Virus record (IMG/VR): IMGVR_UViG_3300025325_000690
Coordinates: 1-20,436 of that record
Origin: a virus
Length of the DNA: 20,436 nucleotides
Reading direction: 5' to 3' (one strand)
Part shown: positions 2,021-18,955 of the stretch, piece after piece
Numbering within the stretch: position 1 is the stretch's first letter
Layout: every line of letters begins with the position of its first letter
Program-made: the position numbers and the translations under genes
The notes under the pieces: model-generated
Seen by the model: only the letters and a program-made list of their open reading frames with translations
Told to the model about the DNA's origin: nothing
Databases searched by the model: none

Positions 2021-2353
2021 ATGAGAGGAAAGAATGGCGCGGTCCCGCTGACGGCTGAAGGCATTAGCTTGGCTATTGCCAGGGCTAACTCGCCGGAGGT
2101 GCGTCGAGAATATCTTGCCTCTTTGAAGCAAGAGGTCAAGTACTTCGAGCGCGAGTATAGCCTACCCTCGGTTGAGTTAAGGGCCGCATTGCAGAGCAAA
2201 CGTATCAAAGAGAGCCTTGGCGTAGTTAAATGGCTCTATGCTATCGAGGCACTCAGCCGGCTAGAGAATGCTAGGGAAACACGGGTGGAACAATCGAGAA
2301 AACTACCTGCACGTCCTGCTGCGGGTGTTAAGCGATCACCCGTTCGTCGTTAG
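2021..2353 (+). CDS. Putative antitoxin of a TumE-like TA pair
   Basis: A 110-residue protein from ATG 2021, which has a perfect AGGAGG 9 bases upstream; the TTG at 1982 has none. The core SPEVRREYLASLKQEVKYFE then YSLPSVELR and a final VVKWLYAIEALSRLE follow a pattern I know from small helical antitoxins encoded directly before TumE (DUF6516) toxins: an L/FE.xY helix, an S.E segment and a W-x4-L helix. It would bind and neutralise the downstream product. Its C-terminal ~29 codons overlap the toxin ORF in another frame by 86 bases and read as Arg/Pro-rich sequence, so the natural C-terminus may be lost or extended. Confidence 0.6.
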   Translation: MRGKNGAVPLTAEGISLAIARANSPEVRREYLASLKQEVKYFEREYSLPSVELRAALQSKRIKESLGVVKWLYAIEALSRLENARETRVEQSRKLPARPAAGVKRSPVRR

Positions 2354-2612
2354 TCACGACATTACAATCGAGCCTGAGCAGGCTGGGTTCGGCGAAATTC
2401 GCGGGCGTATAGAATGTCACGCGGGCGTCTATTTGGAAGTCCAGAAGCTGTATGAAACCCGCGAGCGCTCCGGCCGCATCGAGGCTCGAACCTGGAAGTA
2501 CTCTTATCATGCTGGATTCTCTGACGATGGTAGACGAATCCTCCGTTACGATAACGCGGATCAGCCGGGCGGGCTTTCTGTTATACTGATGGGCGCACAC
2601 GCTCGGGCGTGA
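2268..2612 (+). CDS. TumE-like toxin, C-terminus apparently truncated
   Basis: A 114-residue protein resembling the TumE toxin family: an N-terminal helix NYLHVLLRVL, a strand pair with GEIRGRIECHAG and VYLEVQKLYE, then the hallmark KYSYH followed by RRILRYDNA. In members I remember, the RYDNA strand leads to a His-rich P-H-H...F-P-H-x-K-H tail thought to be part of the active site. Here the frame runs instead into DQPGGLSVIL and stops, inside the first copy of a repeated promoter/terminator element. The toxin may therefore be inactive or altered. ATG 2268 has a weak SD and would be coupled to the antitoxin. Family is fairly sure; activity is not. Confidence 0.6.
   Translation: MLGKHGWNNRENYLHVLLRVLSDHPFVVSHDITIEPEQAGFGEIRGRIECHAGVYLEVQKLYETRERSGRIEARTWKYSYHAGFSDDGRRILRYDNADQPGGLSVILMGAHARA
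2574..2587 (+). promoter_or_regulatory. Extended -10 promoter candidate, copy 1
   Basis: The box CTTTCTGTTATACT contains an extended -10 (TGTTATACT at 2579-2587). It is the first of three near-identical boxes, lies inside the 3' end of the toxin ORF and would start a transcript near 2594. No good -35 is seen, as expected for an extended -10 promoter. Confidence 0.45.
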
Positions 2613-2892: not shown

Positions 2893-2978
2893 GGAGAGAC
2901 CGCCATTGGCGTGGCATCCTCTCTCGAAAAGAGGTAAGCCGAAAGGCAGTGTGGGTTCAACTCCTACTCTCTCCGCCA
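2893..2978 (+). tRNA. tRNA-Ser (CGA anticodon)
   Basis: Acceptor GGAGAGA pairs with TCTCTCC before discriminator G and an encoded CCA. The anticodon arm is CCTCT-CTCGAAA-AGAGG, giving anticodon CGA for UCG codons. A long variable arm with GCC-GAAA-GGC marks a class II serine tRNA. The T-arm GTGGG-TTCAACT-CCTAC is intact apart from one G-T pair. It is the first of three tRNAs packed within 260 bases. Confidence 0.9.
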
Positions 2979-2981
2979 AAC

Positions 2982-3067
2982 GGAGCGGTGGCCGAGCGGT
3001 AAGGCAGCGGATTGCTAATCCGTACACGGTTCGCCGTGCGCAGGTTCGATTCCTGCCCGCTCCGCCA
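2982..3067 (+). tRNA. tRNA-Ser (GCT anticodon)
   Basis: Acceptor GGAGCGG pairs with CCGCTCC, followed by G and an encoded CCA. The anticodon arm GCGGA-TTGCTAA-TCCGT gives GCT, reading AGC/AGU. The long variable arm ACGG-TTCG-CCGT and the T-arm GCAGG-TTCGATT-CCTGC are canonical for serine. It begins 3 bases after the CCA of the previous tRNA, so both are probably processed from one precursor. Confidence 0.95.
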
Positions 3068-3071
3068 AAGT

Positions 3072-3148
3072 GGGCCTGTAGCCCAATGGCAGAGGCAACC
3101 GTCTCAAAAGCGGTGCAGGTGTAGGTTCGAATCCTACCAGGCCCACCA
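3072..3148 (+). tRNA. tRNA with CAA anticodon (Leu by code, short variable loop)
   Basis: Acceptor GGGCCTG pairs with CAGGCCC, discriminator A and encoded CCA. The T-arm GTAGG-TTCGAAT-CCTAC is perfect. The anticodon arm ACCGT-CTCAAAA-GCGGT puts CAA at 34-36, which reads UUG (Leu). Leucine tRNAs normally have a long variable arm; here the variable loop is only about 6 bases, so it is a class I tRNA body. Charging identity is therefore uncertain. Confidence 0.85.
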
Positions 3149-5752: not shown

Positions 5753-6021
5753 GTGGCCTCTCCCCCGCTGGCGCTGCCCGAATGATCGCCGCCGCCGCGC
5801 TCCAGGAGCAGGCCGAACGGCTGGTGCTTCGCGCTGAGCGGATCGCGGCTGAGGACGGCGGCTGGCACAAGGTCAAGCCGGGGCCGGTCAACGTCTGCTT
5901 CTGCCGTGGCTTCGGCGGCGCTCACGGTGAGCACTTCGTCTATATGCTCGGCGTCGAGCGGATCGACCGCGAGCAGGCCGTCTGGTTCACGCACGACGCG
6001 ATCGAGGCGGCGAACCGATGA
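5749..6021 (+). CDS. Hypothetical protein ending DAIEAANR
   Basis: A 90-residue protein: an Ala-rich helical start (AARMIAAAALQEQAERLVLRAERIA) and a mixed segment with CFCRGF and HGEHFVYMLGVER. I do not recognise it. Its last codons and stop, 22 bases, are nearly identical to the end of the gene at 7195, where the same ATGA coupling follows, suggesting an old duplication of a gene end or coupling signal. Confidence 0.65.
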   Translation: MSGLSPAGAARMIAAAALQEQAERLVLRAERIAAEDGGWHKVKPGPVNVCFCRGFGGAHGEHFVYMLGVERIDREQAVWFTHDAIEAANR

Positions 6022-6650
6022 CGCTACCTGGGACCCACTGGTATTTCTCGTCGGGCCGTGAGGCGAACGGCAGCAGACGCAAGCAGGCCGTGGGCAAGAC
6101 GTACACCGTCAAGGGCAAGGTCGTACCCTGCGCCAGCGGCCTGCATGCCTCTGAGCGGGCGATAGACGCACTCCAGTACGGCCACGGCAATATCGCATGG
6201 CGGGTCACGCTAGGGGGCGATGTCGTGGCGCACGGTTCGCCCGTCGATAAGCACGCAGCCTCTGAGCGGACACACTTGGCGATGGCCGACGCGACGATGG
6301 CTCTGCATGAGTTCGCCTGCTGGTGCACGGAGCGGGCGCTGAAGGGGGAGCGCAAGGCAGGGCGGGAGCCGCACCCCGATTCGTGGCGAGCCATCAAGGT
6401 TAAGCGGCTGTGGATGAAAGGCAAGGCCACAGACGAAGAATTGAGCGCGGCGGAGAGCGCGGCGAGGAGCGCGGCGAGGAGCGCGGCGAGGAGCGCGGCG
6501 AGGAGCGCGGCGTGGAGCGCGGCGAGGAGCGCGGCGGAGAGCGCGGCGAGGAGCGCGGCGGAGAGCACGGCGGAGAGCGCGGCGTGGAGCGCGCAGAACC
6601 GCAAACTGGAGGCGATGCTCTCGCGGCTTGTCTGGAGCGTGGGACCGTGA
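6018..6650 (+). CDS. DUF7666-like phage protein with SAAR/SAAE/SAAW repeats
   Basis: A 210-residue protein. Residues ~25-90 (GKTYTVKGKVVPCASGLHAS then IAWRVTLGGDVV) match the DUF7666-type phage domain, in which a short sandwich has a conserved C-x-S-G-x-H-A. Residues 143-190 are twelve tetrapeptides of the form S-A-A-R/E/W encoded by a 12-bp repeat, then SAQNRKLEAML. The repeat should form a long Ala-rich helix. The same combination of domain and repeats is known from other phages; the function is unknown. Coupled by ATGA before and GTGA after. Confidence 0.8.
   Translation: MTLPGTHWYFSSGREANGSRRKQAVGKTYTVKGKVVPCASGLHASERAIDALQYGHGNIAWRVTLGGDVVAHGSPVDKHAASERTHLAMADATMALHEFACWCTERALKGERKAGREPHPDSWRAIKVKRLWMKGKATDEELSAAESAARSAARSAARSAARSAAWSAARSAAESAARSAAESTAESAAWSAQNRKLEAMLSRLVWSVGP
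6444..6590 (+). repeat. Twelve tandem 12-bp units (AGCGCGGCGAGG consensus)
   Basis: Twelve in-frame units of AGC-GCG-GCG-NNN, where the last codon is AGG, GAG or TGG; one unit has ACG for GCG. A partial unit closes the tract. It encodes the S-A-A-x repeat of the DUF7666-like protein. No unit creates a stop in any of the six frames, so long shadow ORFs cross it on both strands. Such a tract is prone to length change by slippage. Confidence 0.95.
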
Positions 6651-7574: not shown

Positions 7575-7617
7575 AGAACAGAAGAACAAGCGTGACCGAA
7601 TGGAGGATTACGGATGA
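7534..7617 (+). CDS. 27-residue acidic/aromatic mini-protein
   Basis: ATG 7534 to TGA 7615-7617 encodes MSAEEAWWYDYVIEEQKNKR and seven more residues, a compact amphipathic helix typical of a real peptide and unlike shadow frames here. The stop overlaps the ATG of the next gene (ATGA). No consensus SD; translation may be coupled. Function unknown. Confidence 0.5.
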   Translation: MSAEEAWWYDYVIEEQKNKRDRMEDYG

Positions 7618-8580: not shown

Positions 8581-8658
8581 ATGAAGATACTGCTGGCGAA
8601 TCTCGTCATCCTGGCCGCGCTGGCGTTCGGCGCCCCGGCCCTGTTCTTCGCCGGGTAA
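8581..8658 (+). CDS. 25-residue hydrophobic membrane peptide
   Basis: ATG 8581 follows AAGGGAAAGGGGGA and encodes MKILLANLVILAALAFGAPA then LFFAG, one transmembrane helix with almost no loop. Such peptides act as small holins, toxins or membrane modulators in phages, but nothing here decides. Non-overlapping neighbours and a purine-rich RBS suggest independent translation. Confidence 0.5.
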   Translation: MKILLANLVILAALAFGAPALFFAG

Positions 8659-8670
8659 TGGCAATCGGGG

Positions 8671-8700
8671 GCGCTGATCGGGCAGCGCTCCCGCCAAACG
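8671..8700 (+). repeat. Hairpin repeat copy 1, loop ATCGGG
   Basis: GCGCTG-ATCGGG-CAGCGC (8671-8688) is a perfect 6-bp hairpin, followed by TCCCGCCAAACG and the SD of the next gene. Its 18-mer is the exact reverse complement of the hairpin at 8901-8918, which is followed by the same 12 bases. Confidence 0.7.
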
Positions 8701-8714
8701 AAAGGGGATAGACG

Positions 8715-8969
8715 ATGACGATACCGACACCAACGCGAACGTGGGACGAGGACCGCGAGGCGCTGGGGCAAGCGACTGACCTGCTCGCCTTCGCCAATAG
8801 GTTCCTTCCCGCCGGTCGCGCCTGCCAGATAACGGGCACCACTATTGAACGATGTGGTGGCTGTCAGCCGTGCTGCGCCCAGTTCATCGAGGACTGGCTG
8901 GCGCTGCCCGATCAGCGCTCCCGCCAAACGGAAGGAGAACCCGTGACGAACCTGAGAGGGACTCGCTGA
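8715..8969 (+). CDS. Hypothetical protein with CGGCQPCC
   Basis: An 84-residue protein. ATG 8715 follows AAAGGGGA. WDEDREALGQATDLLAFANR is helical, and CQITGTTIERCGGCQPCCAQF could bind a metal or form disulfides. Not recognised. The second hairpin repeat lies in its 3' coding part, and the last ~10 residues come from sequence that looks like a second SD (GGAAGGAG) and a GTG start at 8942, so the gene end may have been altered by duplication of the hairpin unit. Confidence 0.55.
   Translation: MTIPTPTRTWDEDREALGQATDLLAFANRFLPAGRACQITGTTIERCGGCQPCCAQFIEDWLALPDQRSRQTEGEPVTNLRGTR
8901..8930 (+). repeat. Hairpin repeat copy 2, loop CCCGAT
   Basis: GCGCTG-CCCGAT-CAGCGC (8901-8918) has the same stem as copy 1 but the complementary loop, and is followed by the same TCCCGCCAAACG (8919-8930) and a purine-rich SD. 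It lies inside the coding region of the 8715 gene. Confidence 0.7.
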
Positions 8970-8970
8970 C

Positions 8971-9051
8971 ATGGCACCGAGCGGCGGCTGCGTTAGCTAC
9001 CGGCCTAACCGCTCTGTGCTTGGTAGTGCTCAGTACACAAGGGGGACATGA
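8971..9051 (+). CDS. Possible 26-residue peptide before the membrane gene
   Basis: ATG 8971 to TGA 9049-9051 gives a 26-residue peptide whose stop overlaps the ATG of the membrane protein, as in the coupled genes around it. There is no SD. A competing frame in the same bases encodes a hydrophobic helix (LATGLTALCLVVL) that is open into the lysozyme frame but lacks a clear start. I cannot tell which is used. Confidence 0.3.
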   Translation: MAPSGGCVSYRPNRSVLGSAQYTRGT

Positions 9052-9410
9052 TGACAGTGAGACGAATCGTCCTGGCGCTGGCGTGGGTGACGCTGGCCCT
9101 GGCGTTCATCAGCGGGCTGTGGTTGACGTGGTGGCTCTACTTGCTCGTCTTGAGCTTGCAGATTCCCGCCTGGGTGCTGCTGGATCGCCTGAACGAGGCT
9201 TGGAAGTGCCGGGAGGCGGAGACCCAGGCGATGGACCGGCTGATACGGGAGAGTCGGGCACGGGGGCAGGGAGCGAGAGCCCCCCAGTCGTGGCCGCTGT
9301 GGAATTATCGGCCTGTGAGCGCGGACCCATTGAGCGCCAAATCTGCGTCGTCTGGCCTGCCGAGGAGTGGGGAACCGCACTCCGTATTGCCCGAGCGGAA
9401 TCGGGAGTAG
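9048..9410 (+). CDS. Membrane protein, possible anchor for the lysozyme domain
   Basis: A 120-residue ORF; ATG 9048 or 9051 follows GGGGGA. Residues 6-27 and 29-47 are two strongly hydrophobic helices (IVLALAWVTLALAFISG; LTWWLYLLVLSLQIPAW), followed by a charged helix LLDRLNEAWKCREAETQAMD. After about residue 78 the sequence turns into Ser/Pro-rich text that is the out-of-frame shadow of the lysozyme. The natural product may be shorter, or continue into the lysozyme frame by a -1 shift at the C6 run at 9280-9285. Confidence 0.65.
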   Translation: MMTVRRIVLALAWVTLALAFISGLWLTWWLYLLVLSLQIPAWVLLDRLNEAWKCREAETQAMDRLIRESRARGQGARAPQSWPLWNYRPVSADPLSAKSASSGLPRSGEPHSVLPERNRE

Positions 9411-9619
9411 ACGCAAATGGAATACTGGACGGTGATTACGCTGTGGGCGACGGTTCTTACGGCGTCTTCCAATTGCAGGCGAGTGTACACGCGCAAGGCA
9501 TACCGGACTTCTGGGAGCACTGGATGCTACCCGAGTTCAATGTTCGCTGGGCCTTCCTCATCTGGCTCGACAGGGAGAACGCAGGCGGGTGTGGCTGGTG
9601 CCAGTGGAGCACGTACTGA
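9290..9619 (+). CDS. Lysozyme/transglycosylase-like domain
   Basis: The reading frame over 9290-9619 encodes an SLT-type lysozyme domain: WGTALRIARAESGVDANG carries the likely catalytic Glu in A-E-S-G, followed by YAVGDGSYGVFQLQASVHA and FNVRWAFLIWLDRENAGG with GWCQWSTY at the end. It would cleave the peptidoglycan glycan strand. GTG 9290 or 9299 could start it, both without a good SD. Upstream, the same frame is open to 8852 but reads as shadow of the membrane gene. A -1 frameshift from that gene would give a membrane-anchored enzyme. Its place in the early region, away from the amidase, is unusual. Confidence 0.7.
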   Translation: MAAVELSACERGPIERQICVVWPAEEWGTALRIARAESGVDANGILDGDYAVGDGSYGVFQLQASVHAQGIPDFWEHWMLPEFNVRWAFLIWLDRENAGGCGWCQWSTY

Positions 9620-10074: not shown

Positions 10075-10298
10075 GATTAGTTTTCGTCACTCGTAACCGC
10101 CTCCCTGTTCAAATCTGGCATGTCGGCATAAAGAGTCGCGAGGTGCCGATGTTTAGCTTCGACAACCATCGCGCGGAACCCATCACGGACTATTTAACGG
10201 AGTGTGGCTTGTGGCATATGGCTGAGCAGGATGTCCGCTGGCCCTTTCGTTTCTGCCGACGATGTTTTCGGCAGCCAAGCGCGAAAGTGCTGACGTGA
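10071..10298 (+). CDS. Hypothetical protein, lower-GC gene
   Basis: A 75-residue protein from GTG 10071: LVFVTRNRLPVQIWHVG is beta-rich and FRFCRRCFRQPS near the end holds a Cys pair. Third-position GC is lower than in the genes on either side, hinting at a separate origin. Not recognised. Its stop overlaps the RusA start. Confidence 0.55.
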   Translation: MRLVFVTRNRLPVQIWHVGIKSREVPMFSFDNHRAEPITDYLTECGLWHMAEQDVRWPFRFCRRCFRQPSAKVLT

Positions 10299-10630
10299 GG
10301 CTGACGATCCCCGGCCAGCCCGTGCCGGCGAGCCGCCCCCGTGTCACGAAGAACGGAACGTACATCGCTCCACGGTACGCGCAGTGGCTCAGAGACGCCC
10401 GCTGGCTGGCCCGCGACCAGTACCGGGGGCCGGTAATCACGGGGCCAGTGCAGGTTCGTATCCAGTGCTTCGGGGCGCGGGCGAACAGCGATGTCGATAA
10501 CCTGATAAAGGGACCACTGGATGCGCTCACGGGGATCGTCTACGCCGACGACAGGCAGGTCGAATACGTCAGTCTGATGCGGATAGCGGCGAAGGCGGGC
10601 AAGCGGGTAGAGATAGAGGTGCTCGCGTGA
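10295..10630 (+). CDS. rusA: RusA-family Holliday junction resolvase
   Basis: A 111-residue protein from GTG 10295 (GTGA overlap) covering the whole RusA fold. GQPVPASRPRVTKNG is the family start, and ANSDVDNLIKGPLDALTGIVYADDRQV holds the catalytic set: Asp 66, Asp 68, Lys 72 and Asp 85/86, matching E. coli RusA Asp70, Asp72, Lys76 and Asp91. It would act as a dimer cutting four-way DNA junctions to clear branched DNA before packaging. It sits among replication genes, a common place for phage rusA. Confidence 0.93.
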   Translation: MRLTIPGQPVPASRPRVTKNGTYIAPRYAQWLRDARWLARDQYRGPVITGPVQVRIQCFGARANSDVDNLIKGPLDALTGIVYADDRQVEYVSLMRIAAKAGKRVEIEVLA

Positions 10631-17623: not shown

Positions 17624-18955
17624 GTGGCGAATGTGGTAGCTGAAGTGGCGGCGTATCCGGCGAACGCGAAGGTGATCGAGGTGATGGCGGGGGCGCAGGC
17701 GGAGTTCGTGCGGAGTGAGGCGCGGTATCCGGGGTACTTTGCGGGGCGGCGTGGCGGGAAGACCTCGGCGTCGGTCATCAAGATGGTGCGCTACATGACG
17801 TCGTATCCAGGAGCGTACTTCATGTTCACCGTCCCGACCTTGGGGGACGTGGACCGGATTCTCCTTCCCAAGATGCGGGAGTTCTTCGGGGTGTTCGAGG
17901 GGGATATGTGGGGGTGGTTGGAGAAAAAGAGTCAGATCGTCTTCCCGAAGCACCGGGGGCCGAACGGGGAGGGTGGAGTGGTGTTCGTCAGGCCAGCGTC
18001 GGAACCGGACTCCATGCGCGGGCCGACTCTGGCAGCGGCCGCGATGGACGAGATCGGAACGGAGGACCAGCACGCCGCCTTCCAGATCCTGCAACCCGCG
18101 GTGTTCGGCGGACAGCCGGGCTTCCCCCACCAGATATGGGTCACGAGCACCCCTCGGGTGGAGCGCAAGTGGGTGAAGCAGAGGTGGGCGGACCACCTGA
18201 ACCCGCTGACCGGAGACCCGCTGCCCCCCGAGGACTACCCCATCTTCCGGGCGCGCACGGTGGACAACTACCACCTGGAGGCGGAGGCAATCCAGTCGCT
18301 TGTGAGCGAGTTCGGCAACAGCCGTGAGGCCCAGCAGGAGCTGGAGGGCGAGTTCATCGCCCTTGAGGGCACGGTGTTCGGGATGCTCGACCCGGAAGTC
18401 CACCTGCGTTACCCCCCGGAGGATACGGTGTTCACCCGGACGGTGTTCGGCTTCGACATCGGCGGCAGTGCCCCGACGGCGATCATCCAGTGGAAGCTGG
18501 ACCGGCAGTTCCGTAAGTGGGCCGTGGCCGAGTTCTATAAGCCCGACGCCGACGAATACGAATGGGTGAAGTGGCTCGCCGACCGGGGTGCGCTGCGGGT
18601 CTTCTGCGATCCCGCCATCAGTGACAGGACGCTCCTGTACTGGAGCCGCGTCCACGGGATCAGGTTCGTCCGGGCGCGGGACAAGACCCACGAGGGACGG
18701 CTGAACGTCTGGAAGACGGGCCTGTCTCACGAGACGCGCCCCCCGAGCATCTTCATCTCGCCGGATTGCCCTATGCTCTGGAACGAACTCCTTGAGCTTC
18801 GGCGGAAGAGGGTCGGGGACGAGGAATACTCCGAGGCGTGGGCGCGGAGCACGGCAGACCACGCCTACGACGCCGGAGCCTACGGCTTGCAGGAACTCCA
18901 GTTCCCAAAGACCGCGCTGCCCCAGCCGGCTCAACTTGTCGGAGCCGTGAGATGA
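17624..18955 (+). CDS. terL: Large terminase subunit
   Basis: A 443-residue packaging motor. Walker A GRRGGKTS (41-48), Walker B AAAAMDE (137-143) with catalytic Glu 143, and coupling motif TSTP (174-177) form the ATPase. The RNase H-like nuclease has Asp 278 in FGFDIGG, Asp 329 in VFCDP and Asp 412/416 in TADHAYDAG. Length is typical. GTG 17624 is chosen because it is the first start in frame; no SD is seen apart from G-runs in the terminator stem. It pumps DNA into the portal and cuts it. Confidence 0.95.
   Translation: MANVVAEVAAYPANAKVIEVMAGAQAEFVRSEARYPGYFAGRRGGKTSASVIKMVRYMTSYPGAYFMFTVPTLGDVDRILLPKMREFFGVFEGDMWGWLEKKSQIVFPKHRGPNGEGGVVFVRPASEPDSMRGPTLAAAAMDEIGTEDQHAAFQILQPAVFGGQPGFPHQIWVTSTPRVERKWVKQRWADHLNPLTGDPLPPEDYPIFRARTVDNYHLEAEAIQSLVSEFGNSREAQQELEGEFIALEGTVFGMLDPEVHLRYPPEDTVFTRTVFGFDIGGSAPTAIIQWKLDRQFRKWAVAEFYKPDADEYEWVKWLADRGALRVFCDPAISDRTLLYWSRVHGIRFVRARDKTHEGRLNVWKTGLSHETRPPSIFISPDCPMLWNELLELRRKRVGDEEYSEAWARSTADHAYDAGAYGLQELQFPKTALPQPAQLVGAVR

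Follow-up and report, generated by a model that had tools for sequence, protein, structure and literature searches.

Our goal was to understand whether positions 9048 to 9619, in a virus contig, encode one protein or two. The original prediction saw here a membrane anchor and a lysozyme domain, in different frames, and proposed that they are joined at a run of six C. If so, either the ribosome changes frame at this point or the record contains an error. We show below that there are two coding segments, in frames that differ by -1, and a rough place at which one hands over to the other. We then weigh what might account for this arrangement.

The contig and its gene setting

The record is a linear virus contig of 20,436 bases, and this whole stretch is the window referred to throughout. 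Landmarks are as follows.

2-586: amidase gene (PF01510); the contig begins inside this gene
Near 953-1153: ORF of a probable holin, assigned by eye; comes after the amidase
After the probable holin: small early-type genes
10262-10630: RusA
After RusA: a DnaB_2-like gene
17624-18955: large terminase, in the end region of the contig
19004 to the contig end: portal, assigned by eye

No near match to the contig was present among 50,697 phage records. Relatives of the terminase share only 23-26% identity, and searches for relatives of the portal, and of the ORF at 7614, found none. Since terminase relatives are so distant, and portal relatives absent, the phage is isolated within the collections searched. 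This limits all comparative tests. The record's other long genes are intact.

One other part of the window bears on the discussion of overlapping genes below. Here, a small ORF precedes, in another frame, a probable TumE toxin (PF20126, E 1.6e-6).

2021-2353 (+): small ORF of the TumE pair, with the sequence AGGAGG
2268-2612 (+): TumE-like ORF

These ORFs are probably a toxin-antitoxin pair. They overlap by about 86 nt, the second long overlap in the record.

The coding frame changes once

The features needed to describe the locus are listed next.

9048-9410 (+): ORF A, a 120-aa frame with Shine-Dalgarno sequence AGGGGG upstream
9290-9619 (+): ORF B, from GTG 9290, encoding a 109-aa SLT_3 lysozyme-like protein; may be a gene of its own, sharing 121 nt with A
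9217-9361 (+): interval for the handover of coding from frame A to the -1 frame, B, from phased Markov switch-point likelihood
9280-9285 (+): C6 run, read by A as GCC CCC CAG; the sole run of six in the interval

Relative to A, frame B lies at -1; it is open from 8849 to 9616, with the ORF ending at 9619. Codon scores were trained on the remaining genes of the contig. Between 9048 and 9287, frame A scores +18.1 bits and frame B scores -11.8. Note that when the other genes were read in their two shifted frames (188 windows per frame), no window matched the score of A. Between 9281 and 9616 the situation is reversed, with B at +10.0 bits and A at -21.5. We conclude that the coding frame changes once, and that chance openness is not the cause. 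Hence, codon scores agree with the proposal that the 9048 frame loses sense and the -1 frame takes over.

Gene-like codon use in ORF A stops at approximately 9250-9290. Beyond 9290, the tail scores -5.1 bits over 39 codons, and 2% of true windows are equally low. The tail looks out of frame, as do the C-terminal tails of a few other genes in the record. The maximum-likelihood switch point is 9252, with the interval 9217-9361 defined at 6.6 bits. The C6 run is inside this interval, but is not at the optimum (-4.6 bits). For comparison, 5.5% of random 145-nt intervals, in the window, contain a run of six or more. The C6 run thus has mild support as the place of the change.

Logically, frame B might be the gene by itself. 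It would then start at CTG 8966 and encode a signal-like stretch, a Gly/Pro-rich linker, and the lysozyme, leaving ORF A spurious. Consistent with this, the frame has 256 codons without a stop, starting at 8849, and the 147 codons before 9290 would be stop-free with a chance of about 0.006, at the local -1 frame rate. There is also a hydrophobic stretch at 8975-9033, and the sequence GAGAGG, ahead of CTG 8966, could serve as a Shine-Dalgarno element (-6.3). However, A exceeds B by about 30 bits over 9048-9287 and, were B the gene, the largest such difference among the other genes is -1.0. Furthermore, CTG starts are rare and the stronger Shine-Dalgarno element belongs to A. We consider this explanation most improbable. 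As a single long gene, frame B was rejected on codon statistics. The hydrophobic stretch itself (AAAALATGLTALCLVVLST, 8975-9033, +) resembles a signal peptide and shares the open frame of the lysozyme. It is some 250 nt ahead of the lysozyme, in a region where no frame looks coding.

A divergent lysozyme-like domain and its possible starts

The product of frame B resembles SLT_3, the 'Lysozyme like domain' of Pfam.

9371-9613 (+): match to SLT_3 (PF18896), profile positions 15-89 of 89, including the Glu of ARAESG and the motif GSYGVFQ

The match has an E value of 0.0014 and a score of 19.5 bits, below the curated cut-off of 27. With the record searched alone, the E value is 3.1e-5. Members of the family include Forthebois gp26, a virion-associated transglycosylase of a Streptomyces tectivirus, and gp119 of Rhodococcus phage E3. 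When aligned with these proteins, and with a third called lyZ1, the catalytic-type Glu in ARAESG, and GSYGVFQ, are retained. Like Forthebois gp26 and E3 gp119, the frame B domain has the motifs E-S-G and G-[LV]-[FW]-Q, and a C-terminal W-S/T-T-Y. Conversely, identity to the pair is only 23-30%. An independent small profile was built from lyZ1, Forthebois gp26, and E3 gp119. With this profile, the lysozyme frame tops all 309 frames of the window and beats 5000 shuffles, at a low score. AlphaFold2, run without an alignment on the 109-aa protein, gave a mean pLDDT of 45, too low for the model to be used. From the sequence comparisons, we accept that frame B likely encodes a divergent SLT_3-like domain, with predicted activity. 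The lysozyme domain of the original prediction is thus supported, at a score under the Pfam cut-off.

We searched for relatives of the lysozyme in viral contig, genome contig, phage, and plasmid collections, and found none. A degenerate DNA pattern gave three matches, attributable to chance from their ORFs, and a second pattern gave zero. Alignments with made-up SLT-like rows found no relatives among viral contigs; a made-up SLT-like probe retrieved real SLT_3 proteins from phages. An SLT_3 search of 297 genomes, from the phylum of a terminase relative, returned one weak match.

Known SLT_3 examples are virion proteins encoded by single ORFs (PMC6950372). The domain studied here differs, being small and in another frame than the supposed anchor. 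Another parallel is lyZ1 (148 aa), from an uncultured siphovirus (MW202577). Like segments A and B together, this protein has an N-terminal membrane segment, a linker, and an SLT_3-like domain. Its neighbours are small non-structural genes, as is the case here, and the position of our SLT_3 protein, away from structural and lysis genes, recalls that of lyZ1. The two also differ; lyZ1 is one ORF, with one helix, and is 23% identical to the 109-aa protein, with the anchors compared by layout. The phage also encodes an amidase, as well as a probable holin; the SLT_3 protein would add another muralytic to the amidase. Roles in superinfection control, or local opening of the wall, are guesses.

According to the original prediction, the lysozyme has no good start. 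This does not hold, since we found two candidates.

9268-9273 (+): AGGGAG, possible Shine-Dalgarno element of GTG 9290; the spacing, about 16 nt, is above usual

The AGGGAG duplex, at -7.3 kcal/mol, ranks GTG 9290 within the best 10% of GTG/TTG sites, a value close to mid-range for genes in this genome. A further start, GTG 9206, has a value of -5.9. Note that the lysozyme domain starts only at about 9325. Hence, a protein initiated at 9290 keeps the domain whole, and a separate gene, from this GTG, is possible.

One gene, two genes, or a frameshift

ORF A has a strong ribosome-binding site. By hydropathy, a rough method, residues 7-46 (about 40) are hydrophobic and leave room for two helices, in line with the prediction of two membrane helices in the 9048 frame. 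A charged helix-like stretch follows, to about residue 75. Given two helices, N-terminal arginines (RR), and the charged stretch behind, both ends of the protein are probably cytoplasmic. A lysozyme fused to A would, with this topology, face away from the wall. For the enzyme to be on the outer side, a membrane-anchored lysozyme with its N-terminus inside would need an odd number of helices; A, with two likely helices, departs from that layout.

We considered whether a programmed -1 slip, of the ribosome or polymerase, occurs at C6, so that unfused anchor and anchored lysozyme are made in a fixed proportion. In phages, the tail-assembly chaperone genes (G/GT) use a programmed -1 frameshift between an upstream ORF and an overlapping -1 ORF. 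The A/B pair has the same layout, B being the -1 frame of A. In addition, C6 is inside the handoff interval, and a tRNA on P-site CCC would find CCC again after moving back by one base. However, the genes are different from G/GT and frame A contains no canonical X_XXY_YYZ heptamer; the sole heptamer, CCCCCCA (9280), would serve only a ribosome in frame B. At the A site, re-pairing is impossible for CAG. Downstream RNA is less folded than shuffled sequences (z +1.21 for 9286-9385), as is RNA flanking the site (+0.92 for 9240-9340), in a model without pseudoknots. Relatives in which the site might recur were sought, and none was found. Six bases of C is short for polymerase slippage. Even if a slip did occur, two helices would probably place the enzyme in the cytoplasm. 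We consider a programmed slip improbable, with neither an in-frame heptamer nor a stimulatory structure found. A non-canonical -1 slip at C6, with only P-site CCC re-pairing, would yield the two-helix protein by itself and, at a set ratio to it, a fusion that carries the lysozyme; this we regard as very unlikely. A search of the literature on frameshifted endolysins found nothing to the point. Were a slip to operate, this would be a rare case, outside tail-chaperone genes, of a wall-cutting enzyme controlled by frameshifting.

The leading explanation, which we hold tentatively and at slightly short of an even chance, is that 9048-9619 is one anchor and SLT_3-type gene, with the frame broken by an indel in the record. 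The single phage gene would encode a membrane protein ending in a domain of the SLT_3 type (lysozyme or lytic transglycosylase-like), both segments presumably belonging to one product. Somewhere in 9217-9361, perhaps at C6, a base-level insertion or deletion would break the frame once; it could be a true mutation or an error of sequencing or assembly. The enzyme may cut peptidoglycan near the membrane. We favour a single broken gene because the coding statistics change frame once, in one span, without a gap, and because the tail of A looks out of frame. The overlap of 121 nt also departs from other junctions in this genome; twelve nearby junctions each have an overlap of exactly 4 nt, and among the others the maximum is 14 nt, or 41 nt should ATG 14727 be the start. 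In lyZ1, one ORF encodes membrane segment, linker, and SLT_3-like domain together, and the C6 run is within the handoff despite the low frequency of such runs. Finally, long co-directional overlaps in prokaryotes are nearly always artefacts. In a survey of 338 genomes, 0 of 715 co-directional overlaps of more than 60 bp were judged real, and 163 of the 715 were genes split by frameshift (PMC2478687).

The close rival, which is quite possible, is that two genes overlap by 121 nt. One would encode the two-helix membrane protein A (9048-9410) and the other a free 109-aa SLT_3 lysozyme, from GTG 9290 or 9299, with the tail of A an unconstrained extension. GTG 9290 has a Shine-Dalgarno duplex typical of genes here, the domain would be complete, and the hairpin topology of A is ill-suited to an anchored enzyme. 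The TumE pair is another long overlap in the window. DNA viruses usually have short overlaps: genome means have a median of 15.6 nt, although the upper quartile reaches 61 nt (PMC8903798). Conversely, 121 nt is far from the 4-nt pattern of this genome, the Shine-Dalgarno spacing is long, and the lysozyme would have no signal or helix for export. The prokaryotic survey also counts against two genes.

Several of these observations correspondingly weaken the case for a single broken gene. The two helices would leave a fused domain cytoplasmic, whereas lyZ1 has one helix. GTG 9290 yields its own complete domain, with a usable Shine-Dalgarno element, and the fusion was seen in no relative. Intact long genes elsewhere point to an error rate in the record that is not high, which counts against a break. 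Tails that look out of frame recur in a few other genes, the TumE pair shows a second long overlap, and the optimum at 9252 differs from C6. Thus, of the original proposals, a join of anchor and lysozyme is plausible, as one gene with a frame change, and a programmed shift is unsupported; an indel and a two-gene overlap are both more likely. If the explanation is ordinary, the locus adds another divergent phage muralytic gene, and urges caution on frame changes in single-contig virus records.

Other features of the window are as follows. Upstream of the locus, a 39-base direct repeat (85%; 8670-8708 and 8900-8938, +) reads ctgatcgggcagcgctcccgccaaacg... and an A/G-rich ribosome-binding site follows both copies. 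An inverted partial copy is at 8666-8688. A 25-codon ORF (8582-8658, +), with a strong ribosome-binding site, encodes the very hydrophobic peptide MKILLANLVILAALAFGAPALFFAG. The end of ORF 6018-6650 (6410-6650, +) has a short Ala/Ser/Arg-rich repeat run, AARSAARSAA, which another frame reads as GEERGEERGEERG. Three consecutive tRNA genes, for Ser(CGA), Ser(GCT), and Leu(CAA), occupy 2893-3148 (+).
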